Below are positions 7,145-15,056 of a DNA stretch of 56,711 nucleotides, piece by piece (position 1 is the first letter of the stretch; the number at the start of each line of letters is the position of its first letter). Under the pieces are notes generated by a model. That model saw only the letters and a program-made list of their open reading frames with translations, was not told where the DNA came from and did no database searches. The position numbers were made by a program, and so were the translations under genes. Source of the DNA: Lachnospiraceae bacterium (GTDB taxonomy: Bacteria; Bacillota; Clostridia; Lachnospirales; Lachnospiraceae); the NCBI GenBank assembly GCA_017535945.1, contig JAFXTJ010000120.1:1-56711 (forward strand), written 5' to 3'.

Positions 7145-7630
7145 CTATTCCGCCCCTTCCTCCGAGATCATATCGGCATCGTCGTGCAGGATCGCGAGCA
7201 TATAACGGATGCGGATATTGGCACGATCATAATACTGTCGCGCCAGCGATTCGGCATTTTCATCAAAGTCCCCGTCGTAGGCGTCATGAAACGCGGCCAC
7301 CGCCTTGGTCATGTAATCTGCCGCCTCCGCGGGCAGATCCTCCATGGTCTCGAATTCCTCCGGGATCTCCACGCCCGACATCTCCGTAAAGAGCGCATCG
7401 AGACGGTCCATCTGTGTCAGAAATTCCTCCGTCGCATCGGGACTGTCCGGATCGATGCCGTTGATGAGCCCGTCGATCTCGCCCACCTCGGTGTAGAAAG
7501 CATCCATCTCCTCGCAGTACACATCCAGCGGATCCGGAGTCTGATCCCCGCAGCCGGCCGTGAACATCAGCATCAGAGATACGGCGGCGAGAACCGCGAT
7601 CTGTTTTTTCTTCCCCTGTTTCATGATCAT
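7145..7630 (-). CDS. Small lipoprotein at the end of the atp operon
   Basis: This predicted lipoprotein has 161 residues. The basic N-terminus and a hydrophobic stretch end in the lipobox FTAGC with C27 as the lipidated cysteine. The mature part is acidic and alpha-helical, with many Asp/Glu and Tyr, and matches no family I know. A second ATG at 7624 would remove two residues and is equally possible; neither has a strong ribosome site. It starts 11 bp after atpC, so it is probably transcribed with the ATP synthase genes, but nothing in the sequence ties it to the enzyme. Confidence 0.8.
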   Translation of the reverse strand: MIMKQGKKKQIAVLAAVSLMLMFTAGCGDQTPDPLDVYCEEMDAFYTEVGEIDGLINGIDPDSPDATEEFLTQMDRLDALFTEMSGVEIPEEFETMEDLPAEAADYMTKAVAAFHDAYDGDFDENAESLARQYYDRANIRIRYMLAILHDDADMISEEGAE

Positions 7631-7641
7631 ATCGTGACCGG

Positions 7642-8106
7642 TTATCCCAGTTCCTTCTTGTGATCCACTGCCCGGATCCTGGCCATGGCACGTGCCATCG
7701 CCATCTGGGAGACCCGGTATTCGCGCATGGACAGCTGCTTCTGCATTCTCTCCTGCGCACGCTCCAGCGCACGTCTGGCGCGGTTCTCATCGATCTCATC
7801 GGGACGTTCGCAGGTCTCGGCGAGCACCGTACAGGTATTGTCGCTGAAATACACGACACCGGAACCGATGACGGCTTCCTGCCACTCGTCCGTCACCTTG
7901 TCCTCATCACCTGTCTGTCCCTCTTTGAGAACGGGCACGCGGAAACGCATCTCCCCGTTGGAGACGGAATAGACCGAGGTCTCATGATGCGCGAGAAACG
8001 CCTTTTCCCCGTCCGCGCAGGGAAGGATCAGTTCGATCGCGTCGCCCCTGTAGAAGACGCCTTCCTCCGCGTAGATCTTCAGTTGAAAGATGTGTTCGCC
8101 CTGCAT
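7642..8106 (-). CDS. atpC: F1 ATP synthase epsilon subunit
   Basis: The product has 154 residues. It has the beta-sandwich N-terminal domain (about 1-90) that binds gamma and the c-ring, with the conserved FLAHHETSVYSV segment, followed by a helical hairpin rich in Arg/Glu/Ala (about 108-150), the usual inhibitory C-terminal domain. It is slightly longer than the typical 130-140 residues. It starts five bases after the atpD stop, the normal last place of an F1 gene cluster. Confidence 0.93.
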   Translation of the reverse strand: MQGEHIFQLKIYAEEGVFYRGDAIELILPCADGEKAFLAHHETSVYSVSNGEMRFRVPVLKEGQTGDEDKVTDEWQEAVIGSGVVYFSDNTCTVLAETCERPDEIDENRARRALERAQERMQKQLSMREYRVSQMAMARAMARIRAVDHKKELG

Positions 8107-8111
8107 GCCGG

Positions 8112-10381
<2,270 letters not shown>

Positions 10382-10395
<14 letters not shown>

Positions 10396-12166
10396 CGGGT
10401 TCCTTCTTTATCCGCTCGGCATGCTCCAGGATCTGGTTCTTCATCACCTCATCCAGTACGGCGCCGCCGTTGATCTGCATGATGATATCACGGTAGAGTT
10501 CCTTCATTCTCATGAGGAGCTTATTCTGCGCCGCTTTCACTTCCGCCGGCGGGTAGTCATCAAAATACCCGCTGTTTGCGCACACCAGCGTGATGACCTG
10601 CTCCGCCTGTGACAGCGGATGATAAAGCGGCTGCTTCAGCAGTTCCATCAGCGCCTTGCCGTGGGCGAGCTGTTTCTTCGTCGCATCATCCAGATCGGAG
10701 GAGAACTGCGTGAAGACAGCCATCTCCCGGTACTGGGCGAGATCGATACGGATCGAACCGGCCGCTTTCTTCATGGCTCTGGTCTGTGCGGCGGAACCGA
10801 CGCGGGACACGGAGAGACCGACATTGACAGCAGGACGCATGCCCTCAAAGAACAGATCGCTCTCTAAGAAGATCTGTCCGTCCGTGATCGAGATCACGTT
10901 GGTCGGGATATAGGCGGACACATCGCCCGCCTGGGTCTCGATGATGGGCAGGGCCGTCATAGACCCGCCCCCGTTCGCATCGTTTAATTTGGCCGCCCTC
11001 TCGAGCAGTCTCGAATGCAGATAGAAGACGTCGCCGGGATAGGCTTCACGCCCCGGCGGACGCTCGAGAAGCAGGCTCATGGAGCGGTAGGCGACAGCGT
11101 GCTTGGAGAAATCGTCATAGACGATGAGCACATCCTTGCCCTGCCGCATGAAAAATTCGCCCAGCGCGCAGCCTGCATAGGGTGCGATATACTGAAGCGG
11201 CGCGGGATCGGATGCCGTGGCCGACACGACGATCGTATAGTTCATCGCTCCCGTATCATGGAACATCCGCACCAGACGCGCCACCGTGGACACCTTCTGT
11301 CCGATGGCGACGTAGATGCAGATCACATTCTTATCCTTCTGGTTGATGATGGTATCCGTGGCGATCGAAGTCTTGCCCGGCTGGCGGTCGCCGATGATGA
11401 GCTCTCTCTGTCCTCTTCCGATCGGGAACATCGTATCGATCGAGAGGATCCCCGTCTCCATCGGCTGGCAGACACTGCGTCTGTCCATGATCCCCGGCGC
11501 CTTCTGCTCGACGGGGTAATATCCCTCCGCTTCGATCACTCCGGCTTCGTCGATGGGATCTCCCAGTGCGTTGACGACACGGCCGAGGAAATTCCTGCCC
11601 ACGGGGATACCGGCCTGCTTGCCGGTCCGTACCGCCTTGGCGCCGGCACTGATCCCCTGCTCGCCGCCGAAGAGGATGCAGCCGATCTCATTCTCCCTGA
11701 GATCCTGCACCATGCCCCGCGTACCGTCCTCAAAGATCAGGATCTCGCCGTAAAATGCCTTTTCCACCCCTTTGACGATCGCGATGCCGTCGCCGACCCA
11801 GGTCACCTCACCGACTTCTTCGATCCTGGCCTGCAGCTCGAAATCATTGATCTCCCCCTTTAACAGGGAGATCAGCTCCGCCTCCGAGGGAGCAGACAGA
11901 CCCGCAAGATGTTCTCTGAGCTGTACTTCCCTGCCCGCTTCGCTGAAATCAAACTCATGGGAATCCATGCGGATCTTGAAGCCCGATCCGATCGTCGGAT
12001 CCTTGATGAGATCGATGATCAGGGTATCCAGCTTAAACCGTCTGCAGAGCGAGGAACGGATCCGCTCCAGCTGCGCCTGTTTGGGCGGGATATGTGCATA
12101 AAGGAGACTGGCCTGTGCCGGTCTCCTCAGGATATTATCATTCTTTCCTGCGGAAGGCATGCTCAT
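10382..12166 (-). CDS. atpA: F1 ATP synthase alpha subunit with an N-terminal delta-like domain
   Basis: The gene encodes 594 residues, about 90 more than a normal alpha subunit. The alpha core starts near residue 92 ([19 protein letters not shown]) and is complete: P-loop GDRQPGKTS at 259-267 (Pro for the usual Thr), then the nucleotide-binding and C-terminal domains. Residues about 30-90 resemble the C-terminal domain of the delta subunit (AtpH), ending in the family-like stretch [21 protein letters not shown] and [15 protein letters not shown]. The delta N-terminal six-helix bundle is missing, and no separate atpH lies in the operon at its usual place between atpF and atpA. The ATG at 12166 overlaps the atpF stop (ATGA), so the fused product is probably real. 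The role of the extension is inferred. Confidence 0.93.
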
Positions 12167-12656
12167 GAAGCCTCCTCCGATTCGGTGAGCTTGCGGATGA
12201 ACTCGTCATAGAGCGCGCCCTCGGATTCCTCATCGGCCGTATGCATCGCGATATGCGCCGCAGCGTCGATGACCATTTCCTTAAGCGCCGCCTGATTCTT
12301 GTCTCTGGCGATCTGTGCCTCGTTCTCCGCATCCTTGCGGGCGCCGGCTATGATCCTGCGGCTTCCACCTTGGCTTCCTCCACGATCCGGTTATACTCCT
12401 CATAACCGCGGCCGCGCCAGTCCGCCAGCGTCTGCTCCTTTTCCTCGGCGAGCAGGCGGGCCTCTTCTTCATATTTGTCATGCTCCGCCTTAGCCTTCTC
12501 CAGTTCCTCGTCGAGGTGCGCATTGATCCCCTCGATCTGCTCCCTGCGCTCCTCCAGGATCTTGTTGACCCTGCCAAAAAGGAACTTGCGGAAAAAGGCA
12601 TAGAGGATCAGGAGATTGATGATCGTATAGACGATGCTCATATTGACACTTAACAC
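12163..12656 (-). pseudogene. atpF: F0 ATP synthase subunit b, frameshifted
   Basis: The first 102 codons (from ATG at 12656) give a normal b subunit: one membrane helix (YTIINLLILYAFFRKFLFG), then a charged helix ending EEAKVEAAGS and a TAG at 12350-12348. Shifting the frame near 12355-12364 restores the rest: RRIIAGARKDAENEAQIARD and onward to a stop at 12163 that overlaps the atpA start. The 494-bp span is one base short of 165 codons, which fits a single-base deletion in a normal-length b subunit. Loss of b would inactivate the ATP synthase, so a sequencing or assembly error is likely, but a true mutation or recoding cannot be excluded. All neighbours are intact. Confidence 0.85.
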
Positions 12657-12675
12657 GGTGATCTCCCTCCGCTGT

Positions 12676-12894
12676 TTACTTCACAAAGACGATGACGATA
12701 GCCACCAGCAGGCCGTAGATCGCGGTTGCTTCCGCAAGAGCGCCGCCCAGCAGGAGCAGCGTCATGATCTTGCCGTTCGCCTCAGGCTGTCTGGCGACCG
12801 CCTCAACGGCTTTGGCTGTGGCGATACCGATGCCGATACCCGCACCGATGCCGGTCATAGCCGCGATACCTGCGCCCAGAGCTGTCAGATCCAT
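12676..12894 (-). CDS. atpE: F0 ATP synthase c subunit
   Basis: This is a 72-residue hairpin of two membrane helices joined by the polar loop ARQPEANGK. The first helix has the Gly-rich [11 protein letters not shown] pattern for ring packing, and E55 (LAEATAIYG) is the ion-binding carboxylate of helix 2. Against the sodium-binding Ilyobacter c subunit, the Gln ligand (Q32) is replaced by Ile22 and the Ser after the Glu (S66) by Ala56, while the next Thr is kept. This suggests proton rather than sodium coupling. It is 31 bp after atpB and 19 bp before atpF. Confidence 0.95.
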
Positions 12895-12925
12895 AGTATT
12901 CCTCCTTCTTGTTCGTTGAACAGAT

Positions 12926-13627
12926 TTATTCCACCGCTTCCTTGATGTAGAGGGAAGTCAGAAATACAAACACATACGCCTGCAGCAGACCGTCAAACAG
13001 ATCGAAATACAGGCAGAAGACCGCCGGCACAAAGATCGGTACCAGCGTCTTGAGCATCTCCATGATGACCGTCGCCGCCAGGATATTGCCGAAGAGTCGC
13101 ATGCACAGGGACAGCGGTTTGATCCCCAGCTCCAGGATGTTCATGGGCAGGATCACCGCGATCGGCTTCGCAAAGGATTTGAAATACCCCTTCCCGCCTT
13201 TTTTGCGGATCGAGGCGATCTGTACGAGGACGATGCTCGTGATGGCCAGTGCGGCCGTGACATTGAGATCCATCGTGGCGGGCGTAAAGCCCAGGATGCC
13301 CACCAGATTGGAGAATCCCAGGAAGATCAGCAGCGTCATGAGCCACCCGGTGTACTCTTTCGCCTCCTCGCCGAGACCTCCGCCGACCAGGCTTCTCAGC
13401 TTCACCACGGCCGTCTCGATGATAAGCTGCCGCTTCGAGATGTTCGTGACACGCATCTCCGCCGTCATGATGAGCGTCAGGATCATGAGAAAGATCATGA
13501 CTCCCCAGGAGACGACGACGGATTTGGAGATATCAAAAAAACCCGCCGGACCGAAGCCCGGATCGATCGCGATCGCTGTCTTGTCGGAGTTTAAGAGCTC
13601 CTGTACGACTTCACCGACCTTATCCAT
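12926..13627 (-). CDS. atpB: F0 ATP synthase a subunit
   Basis: This is a 233-residue multi-helix membrane protein forming the ion path with the c-ring. The essential Arg lies in [13 protein letters not shown] on the penultimate long helix, and [19 protein letters not shown] is typical of the family. It is the first F0 gene of the cluster and follows the small membrane protein gene by 13 bp. No atpI is seen upstream; the small protein at 13641 holds that place. Confidence 0.95.
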
Positions 13628-13640
13628 GAAACCCGCTCCT

Positions 13641-13886
13641 CTACTTCTTTGCGCCTGCCGCCACGCTCATGGGTGCGGACGCATTGTTCTGCGCGCGCTC
13701 GATGGGCTGCACCTTGGTCTCCGTGCGCAGATACTGATCTTCCTTGACACGGATGGACACATCTTCCTTCTGTGTATACTGCGCCGCGTCATGCTTGCGC
13801 GCCACGGGCCGCATCTGGCCCTTGAGCATCGCAAGGATGATCCAGGCGATGATGACCGCTATGACAATGCCGATAATGATTCCCAT
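13641..13886 (-). CDS. Small single-pass membrane protein ahead of atpB
   Basis: This protein has 81 residues. Residues 2-20 form one membrane helix (GIIIGIVIAVIIAWIILAM), followed by a basic stretch (KGQMRPVARKHD) and a polar cytoplasmic tail rich in Gln, Glu and Lys. It matches no family I recognise. Its place just before atpB is where atpI sits in many operons, but it has one span rather than AtpI's several. It is 9 bp from the zinc-ribbon gene and 13 bp from atpB, so it is probably co-transcribed with both. Confidence 0.75.
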   Translation of the reverse strand: MGIIIGIVIAVIIAWIILAMLKGQMRPVARKHDAAQYTQKEDVSIRVKEDQYLRTETKVQPIERAQNNASAPMSVAAGAKK

Positions 13887-13895
13887 GATCCCTCC

Positions 13896-15056
13896 TTAAC
13901 TCCCCATCAGATAGCCAAGAAACGCGAAGACGATGCTCAGGCCTGCAGCGATCAGGAAGAACAGGCGTGCCGCCTTGCCCTGATCGATCGGCAGATTGCC
14001 GATCATCTTGCCGGTCTGTCCGTTCATCGCAAAGATAAAGGTCTCGTTGTTCCATTTGGTCGAGAGCATCCAGACCGGGAAGAGCGCGTATTCGATCTTC
14101 TCCATATCCACCTTGATATGACGGTCCTTCTCGATGACCTCATCGTGCGAGACGCTGTCCCGCATCTCCTGCGCGGCTGTATTCTCGGCGCGCTCCCGGA
14201 TCCTGGGATCGACGTCTTCTTTTTTCACATCAAAACGGTTGGCGAGGAAGCCCGGCAGATACGCCATGGAAAAAGGCTTGAGATCCTTGTAGTCAAAAGG
14301 CTCGATGGAATCCATCAGGTCATCCGGCATCTTCTCGGAGGCATCCGCGGGAACGCGGTGGAATGCGACATCGCCGCTGCGGCGCACGTCGTAGATCTTG
14401 GTCTCCGTGACCTCCACCTCGCCGCGCAGCTGCTCGGGTGTGAGATTGAACTGCCTGAGATCGACCCCGTGGAAGGAGGCGGCATGCCCGCGGCGGGTAT
14501 TGTTATCCCGCCCCTCAAAGCGCATGTCGGCATGCGCCTTGCCGGAAAAGAGCCAGAACGGCACATAGACGCCCTGGATCTCTTCCAGATGGTTGTTCTC
14601 GGTAAAAGACTTGGGCAGCAGGTGCTTGCCTTCATAGTATTTCTTCAGCGCGGCGACCGCATCCTTCTTCTCATAACGGAAAGGGATGCAGTAATCCGGC
14701 TTCACCGCCTTGGACATCTGTCCGGCGATCGCAGTGGGATTGCCGCAATACGGGCAGGTGGTCACCGCCGTGGAGGGATCCGTATCGAGTGCCGCGCCGC
14801 AGGAGGTGCAGACATAGGTATTGGTCTCCATCTCCCCGCCGTAAGAGGCGGCCTCGGCATTGGCGGCATCGATCCGGGCGTCTTCCTTCTCCCTGGCGGC
14901 TTCCGCTTTGGCGTTCTTCTCCGCCATCCACTTCTCCACCTCTTCCACGGTATAGAGCCCGTCGCAATAGTCGCATTTCAACTTCTGTGTCGCCCCGTCA
15001 AAACGAAGCGGTCCTTCGCACGCGGGACACTTATAGGAGGTAACCTGTTCAGCCAT
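13896..15056 (-). CDS. Double zinc-ribbon membrane-anchored protein
   Basis: The product has 386 residues. Two zinc ribbons stand at the N-terminus (CPAC...CDYC at about 10-31 and CTSC...CPYC at about 82-105), joined by a charged Lys/Glu/Ala-rich helix. The middle holds a conserved region with YVPFWLFSGKAHADMRFEG and VFPVWML-type segments. A single hydrophobic helix (LFFLIAAGLSIVFAFLGYLM) ends the protein at the membrane. Similar TFIIB-type zinc-finger proteins are common and uncharacterised in Lachnospiraceae. A promoter lies directly upstream, and the gene probably heads the ATP synthase operon. Function unknown. Confidence 0.85.
   Translation of the reverse strand: MAEQVTSYKCPACEGPLRFDGATQKLKCDYCDGLYTVEEVEKWMAEKNAKAEAAREKEDARIDAANAEAASYGGEMETNTYVCTSCGAALDTDPSTAVTTCPYCGNPTAIAGQMSKAVKPDYCIPFRYEKKDAVAALKKYYEGKHLLPKSFTENNHLEEIQGVYVPFWLFSGKAHADMRFEGRDNNTRRGHAASFHGVDLRQFNLTPEQLRGEVEVTETKIYDVRRSGDVAFHRVPADASEKMPDDLMDSIEPFDYKDLKPFSMAYLPGFLANRFDVKKEDVDPRIRERAENTAAQEMRDSVSHDEVIEKDRHIKVDMEKIEYALFPVWMLSTKWNNETFIFAMNGQTGKMIGNLPIDQGKAARLFFLIAAGLSIVFAFLGYLMGS

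Follow-up and report, generated by a model that had tools for sequence, protein, structure and literature searches.

A delta-alpha fusion in the F-type ATP synthase of Butyrivibrio and other Lachnospirales, with a possible capacity for more than one stalk

Every ATP synthase described so far carries one a subunit, so that the ions spent per ATP depend solely on the c-ring, as stated in the available text of PMC12229609. Its authors argue that the N-terminal domain of the delta subunit, lying on the threefold axis, restricts the enzyme to one stalk. They engineered a fused FoF1 from Bacillus PS3 (delta-deltaN-alpha), in which the delta N-domain is deleted and the C-domain is joined to alpha, and solved its structure (PDB 9jc1). 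Stalks numbered zero, one, two and three in 15, 51, 26 and 8% of its cryo-EM particles (mean 1.26), with two thirds of the particles having one stalk or none. Gels indicated about two a subunits, H+/ATP was 5.8 against 3.0, and the enzyme was less active than wild type (PMC12229609). One passage of the same paper notes a natural delta-alpha fusion without the N-domain in the operon of Acidaminococcus fermentans, also names UniProt G4Q3K6 and A0A1I2C5T3, and calls for verification; the available text gives no distribution, full-length fusions or tree for natural fusions. The initial annotation of the DNA treated here had taken a delta-alpha fusion to be undescribed; given these two precedents that view falls, and the idea is not wholly new.

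Two further systems come close. In mycobacteria and Gordonia, as in the present case, delta is joined to a neighbouring stalk-related gene (PMC5709465, in its available text), but there it sits on b, whereas in Lachnospiraceae it sits on alpha and would thus be present three times per enzyme; identity with the b-delta fusion was rejected because the delta domain of our locus is on alpha, not b. The operon of the N-ATPase (alternate F1F0) is, like ours, listed without delta (PMC5709465, same text), but its gene order differs from that described below.

The window is a stretch of 56,711 nt, contig JAFXTJ010000120.1 of a Lachnospiraceae genome whose genus (g1) we take as Butyrivibrio. Open reading frames and family profiles place an ATP synthase operon at 7642-13627 on the minus strand, in the order atpB-atpE-atpF-atpA-atpG-atpD-atpC, where atpA is the fused gene:

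12926..13627, minus strand: atpB, a subunit (NF004486, 284 bits, cut-off 272; PF00119)
12676..12894, minus strand: atpE, c subunit (TIGR01260, 60.8 bits, cut-off 43.95)
12163..12656, minus strand: atpF, b subunit, its frame broken near 12350 and the rest in another frame; ends in the ATGA of atpA
10382..12166, minus strand: fused atpA, delta C-domain joined to alpha, 594 aa (open reading frame; PF00213, PF02874, PF00006 and PF00306 in that order; TIGR00962, 733.5 bits)
11903..12115, minus strand: delta (OSCP) C-terminal domain, residues 18-88 of fused atpA (Pfam match 26-87; hhalign 99.7%; dN/dS)
11882..11902, minus strand: short variable linker, residues 89-95 (median dN/dS 0.83)
10385..11881, minus strand: alpha core with its N-terminal helix, residues 96-594 (TIGR00962 match begins at residue 96)
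9508..10395, minus strand: atpG, gamma subunit (TIGR01146, 245 bits, cut-off 194.45)
8112..9503, minus strand: atpD, beta subunit (TIGR01039, 792.3 bits)
7642..8106, minus strand: atpC, epsilon subunit, by operon position (best match NF009984, 68.7 bits, below its cut-off of 164; TIGR01216, 54.1 bits, below its cut-off of 67.25)

The outer limits of the delta domain, 18 and 88, are our choice. The listed frame of atpD begins at 9632; the family match covers it only from residue 46, which, with a reading of the sequence, suggests a TTG start near 9503. Subunits a, c, b, gamma, beta and epsilon are thus all in one operon, epsilon scoring below curated cut-offs and atpF frameshifted, and atpB and atpF have one copy each. 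In place of a separate delta with N- and C-domains there is a C-domain only, inside alpha. The alpha itself is of the ordinary atpA family (733.5 bits against a TIGR00962 cut-off of 484.45); identity with the N-ATPase was rejected, TIGR03324 giving 586.2 bits against a cut-off of 750.5. Around the operon, a small lipoprotein-like gene (7145-7630, minus strand) lies 3′ of atpC, as in some other operons, with a similar start in L042 (9685-10200) and L044 (9582-10106), the last two numbered in the orientation used by the script. Ahead of atpB, at 13641-15056 on the minus strand, are genes for an 81-aa one-helix protein with no Pfam match and a 386-aa zinc-ribbon-like protein with sub-threshold matches; similar neighbours occur in L033, L035 and L037.

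The reading of the extension as a delta C-domain depends on several comparisons. Residues 26-87 match the Pfam OSCP/delta family PF00213 at profile positions 111-172 of 172. This match is weak by itself, reaching 22.7 bits (cut-off 22.3) for the first 105 residues alone and 19.8 bits, under the cut-off, for the whole protein. All 15 extensions put to Pfam, from the window and relatives, matched OSCP at E <= 1. Profile-profile alignment (hhalign) of the extensions with 15 separate deltas spanned 73 columns of the delta C-domain with a probability of 99.7% (E 6.6e-26), and the control comparison with b gave 0.2%. Against solved structures the extension profile found delta and OSCP chains, the best being Bacillus PS3 delta (E 1.4e-6), with the fusion 9jc1 at E 7.6e-6. 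By homology residues 18-88 are a putative docking domain for the b2 stalk. The matched part is the last 62 positions of PF00213; the N-terminal domain, which makes up the first half of delta, is missing. Because atpF terminates within the ATGA of the atpA start, there is no room for atpH between the two. In these respects (an extension of alpha resembling the AtpH C-domain, loss of the delta N-terminal bundle and no atpH between atpF and atpA) the initial annotation is borne out.

It had also proposed that no separate delta gene exists. That part stands for the window genome (G000; 2.65 Mb in 144 contigs, 81.9% complete), where a profile search of the assembled sequence for an intact atpH found no complete delta and the single other OSCP match at E <= 10 was sub-threshold (14.9 bits). 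Neither was a complete delta found in the near relatives G061 (97% complete) and G075 (95% complete). We conclude that the window genome has no other delta able to cap F1, its incompleteness leaving a small doubt. Across the genus the proposal fails, as the counts below show.

Of 61 Butyrivibrio genomes examined, 55, cultured strains included, have the delta C-domain in one frame with alpha. The tally was done by hand and then rechecked; it takes in one frame cut by a contig end (G010), one with an in-frame stop (G036) and three cases below the Pfam cut-off, the window among them. A complete or nearly complete separate delta is present in 45 of the 61, together with the fusion in 43, which leaves 12 with the fusion alone. 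Four of these 12 (G008, G061, G066 and G075) are at least 95% complete, so that no delta need be borrowed there. The fusion was not found in six genomes (G003, G007, G031, G063, G077 and G083), of which only G077 is more than 90% complete; at 99% complete it has no delta or fused-delta match at E <= 1 and does have a V-type enzyme. Six Butyrivibrio-type extensions scanned against named genomes returned 48 loci: 40 from Butyrivibrio, six from other Lachnospiraceae and two from Bacteroidota, the alphas at the last two being unfused. The Butyrivibrio loci include the cultured strains B. hungatei DSM 14810 (L089) and B. proteoclasticus P18 (L107), and also B. hungatei XBD2006 (L097).

Selection was assessed from dN/dS among 37 Butyrivibrio sequences (608 non-independent pairs, with 269 to 469 usable values depending on the region). 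Medians were 0.19 for the delta domain, 0.83 for the linker, 0.89 for the N-tail, 0.31 for the alpha N-helix and 0.04 for the nucleotide-binding domain. The delta domain is under purifying selection and the linker and N-tail are near-neutral, which argues that the extension is selected as protein. These counts and rates bear on whether the locus is an artefact of joining during assembly, or is decaying into pseudogenes in a cell that lives by another ATPase. The window does offer grounds for this: its genome is in 144 contigs and incomplete, a V-type enzyme is also present, and atpF is broken at 12340-12355 on the minus strand, either by assembly error or by real mutation, two cases that look the same here. 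Against it, the fusion recurs in 55 of 61 genomes and in the cultured strains DSM 14810 and P18, its delta domain is constrained, and atpF is intact in sister genomes (164-165 aa in L033, L035 and L037). We give decay very little credence, and reject an assembly or start-codon artefact on the grounds of the 55 genomes, the cultured strains and the purifying selection. With atpF frameshifted in the window and intact in near relatives, the fused enzyme may or may not be produced in the window strain.

An internal start could in principle yield plain alpha beside the fusion, perhaps leaving one alpha in three with a delta domain in a nearly canonical enzyme. An in-frame ATG does fall at the same place in the alpha N-helix (residues 86-106) in 27 of the 37 Butyrivibrio sequences, six of them with AGGA upstream. 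However, the search for six ribosome-binding motifs found none of them in 21 of the 27, the ATG is missing from the other 10 sequences, including the window, and starting there would remove most of the alpha N-helix. Such mixed subunits are improbable, and regular internal initiation of alpha appears unlikely. That the true start of alpha might lie near residue 92, an alternative raised by the initial annotation, is contradicted by the constraint on the delta domain and because no internal start accompanied by a ribosome-binding site is conserved.

The separate deltas of the genus belong, where their operons were fetched, to a second F-type enzyme. All 12 canonical operons fetched have a separate delta, the complete delta of those genomes, and a c subunit with a helix-1 glutamate and the motif ETTGIY. 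In the fused operons of the window and of 20 of 20 loci from the genus, the c subunit has neither and reads AEATAIY. We take a c subunit with helix-1 Gln/Glu and ETTGIY to be the Na+ type, and AEATAIY to be the H+ type; by this motif the fused window enzyme is predicted to be of the H+ type. Fused and canonical alphas of the genus lie far apart in the alpha tree, on starred branches, with 4 of the 12 canonical rows placed; an origin of the fused alpha as a recent duplicate of the second Butyrivibrio F-type enzyme was rejected for this distance. V-type subunit D occurs in 10 of the 61 genomes, the window genome among those with a V-type enzyme, and a complete separate delta in none of these 10 against 45 of the other 51 (Fisher 9e-8, kinship ignored). 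The second rotary ATPase is thus a canonical F-type in 45 genomes and a V-type in 10, never both, which indicates that a typical member of the genus has the fused enzyme and one other rotary ATPase. Six of the 61 have neither a V-type enzyme nor a complete delta; the most complete of these is at 84%, and one, G083, has a piece of delta. A link to ion pumps was not discernible: of the 61 genomes, 60 have RnfC and 50 have the large subunit of the Ech type (PF00346), too even a spread to discriminate.

Scans of the order and the phylum used a profile (A2) built from Butyrivibrio, which may miss distant fusions. The delta C-domain profile matched in at least 188 of 392 sampled Lachnospirales genomes, separate deltas counted in. 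Of 39 genomes outside Butyrivibrio chosen among the matches listed with long frames, 38 were confirmed as fused by reading, and the count over the order is at least 38 outside Butyrivibrio; the remaining genome, G370 (L075), has no alpha in its stretch, and G364 is represented twice (L068 and L180). Of these 38 confirmed fusions, among the matches listed, 22 have only the C-domain, while 16 are long enough to hold a complete delta ahead of alpha; in the four of the 16 put to Pfam, the OSCP match runs over almost the whole family. The full-length proteins, which keep the N-domain, measure 669-690 aa (one 756): L065-L067, L069-L073, L076, L077, L167-L169, L179, L181 and L184. Each F1 would then have three delta N-domains but a single site for them on the axis. 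A sample of 398 genomes from the phylum added five fused frames outside the order, compared with over a hundred separate deltas. In the fused operon L080 (2257-3506; similar layout in L081-L083) the a subunit is long, at 293 aa, and the c subunit, at 124 aa, has an N-terminal extension that resembles a signal peptide; the Pfam matches behind these two assignments are those of L080.

Trees were built leaving out loci without alpha in their stretch (L075, L158, L160, L161, L162, L164 and L166). In a tree of the alpha core (67 rows) the main fusions fall in one clade of 35 rows (support 99/93). Fused versus separate requires four changes on this tree, three of them forced by well-supported branches, and the fusion therefore arose more than once; the tree implies one main origin plus others. 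On a second tree of a chosen subset (68 rows), full-length versus all other states requires five changes, four forced. Well-supported sister sets of full-length and short fusions are found within g53 (100/98), within g29 (100/96) and for L076 with three short forms (99/96). Parsimony itself gives no direction, but regain of a homologous N-domain in place is implausible, and we read the sets as at least three probable losses of the delta N-domain after fusion. As to the fusion step, delta and alpha overlap by four bases in nine and by ten bases in three of 24 separate-delta operons (first start codon taken; e.g. L133 and L134), such that a single indel could have fused the genes.

How closely does the natural protein follow the engineered one? 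The window atpA has the delta-deltaN-alpha design, with the delta C-domain directly before alpha and the N-domain gone. Butyrivibrio L086 aligns with 9jc1 all the way from the delta C-domain across the linker and into alpha, interrupted by a single gap of two residues. The spacing between the delta motif and the alpha core is 52 residues in the window, 56 in L086 and 54 in 9jc1 (the last counted by hand); among 98 distinct fused proteins, 94 have a spacing of 49-63 residues, in a search limited to 45-66. The conserved end helix of the b C-terminus is kept (LYDxF). The two enzymes are therefore alike in the missing N-domain, the C-domain before alpha, a linker within two residues and no other delta in the complex. 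They differ in that the PS3 enzyme was built by design, also without the epsilon C-domain (PMC12229609, available text), and had its stalk number measured, whereas the Lachnospiraceae fusion is natural and has variable linkers. The A. fermentans fusion, as the paper describes it, is likewise without the N-domain but belongs to a different class, Negativicutes.

F1 contains three alphas, and fusion would therefore put three delta C-domains on each F1 and leave nothing from delta on the threefold axis. We infer that the peripheral stalk was rebuilt. The mechanism we propose is that one to three b2 stalks attach, each bringing one a subunit; that extra a subunits would raise the number of protons per turn and per ATP; and that the enzyme could then make ATP, or pump many protons for each ATP, where the membrane potential would not suffice for an ordinary synthase. 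The second rotary ATPase (canonical F-type with a Na+-like c, or V-type) would handle other ion traffic. The full-length fusion would be an intermediate whose three N-domains, all tethered, have to compete for a single position, and loss of the N-domain would free all three positions; repeated loss after fusion is what would be expected if tethered N-domains obstruct one site.

The parallel with the engineered enzyme makes more than one stalk likely, the stalk number being a prediction. We accordingly lean, if only slightly, towards a natural F-type enzyme in which the docking C-domain has become the alpha N-terminus, the N-domain has gone, and more than one stalk and a subunit may be carried. 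Several findings count against it. At most one stalk was seen on two thirds of the engineered particles, and their activity was below wild type (PMC12229609, available text). The alpha N-helix normally pairs with the delta N-domain, and it has stayed fairly conserved (median dN/dS 0.31). Six genus genomes, with the 99% complete G077 among them, show no fusion, and atpF is frameshifted in the window. Since 16 of the 38 fusions outside Butyrivibrio, among the matches listed, keep the N-domain, fusion alone does not mean several stalks. A single-stalk enzyme, with one of three docking domains binding the sole b2 stalk, two idle and the ion/ATP ratio ordinary, is a serious possibility that we nonetheless doubt. 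It agrees with the half of engineered particles that have one stalk and the 15% that have none (PMC12229609), with the full-length relatives that retain the N-domain thought to hold stalks to one, and with the single copies of atpB and atpF; it sits poorly with the approximately two stalks and a subunits of the engineered analogue, by gel and thermodynamic ratio (PMC12229609), and with the absence from the window protein, and repeated loss in relatives, of the very domain held to enforce one stalk.

Taking the multi-stalk reading to its full extent, Lachnospirales, Butyrivibrio above all, would have natural F-type synthases in which stalks and a subunits may each number as many as three, a state arising from delta-alpha fusion and then repeated loss of the N-domain. 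With ten or eleven c subunits, a size we assume, and three a subunits, such an enzyme would move some ten protons for every ATP and need only about one third of the usual proton-motive force. We put this forward tentatively, holding it a little short of even confidence.

Earlier work on these bacteria credits butyrivibrios with all F-type subunits, in a text (PMC4478896) whose available part has no word starting ‘fusion’; neither ‘fusion’ nor ‘fused’ occurs in the available part of PMC6131620, and the fusions mentioned in that of PMC5706428 are other ones. No further report of a delta-alpha fusion was recognised in the open literature, by titles and abstract openings, with most subscription journals outside this scope. 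As far as the literature was searched, four things are new: that nearly all Butyrivibrio carry the fusion, that full-length fusions exist, that the N-domain was lost several times, and that the fused enzyme is accompanied by another rotary ATPase whose type varies. The natural series from separate delta through full delta-alpha fusion to C-domain-only fusion, found partly in cultured strains, parallels a laboratory design made to break the single-a rule. The question of multi-stalk ATP synthases in nature thereby becomes directly testable in rumen bacteria, and the answer would bear on how anaerobes earn ATP at low proton-motive force.
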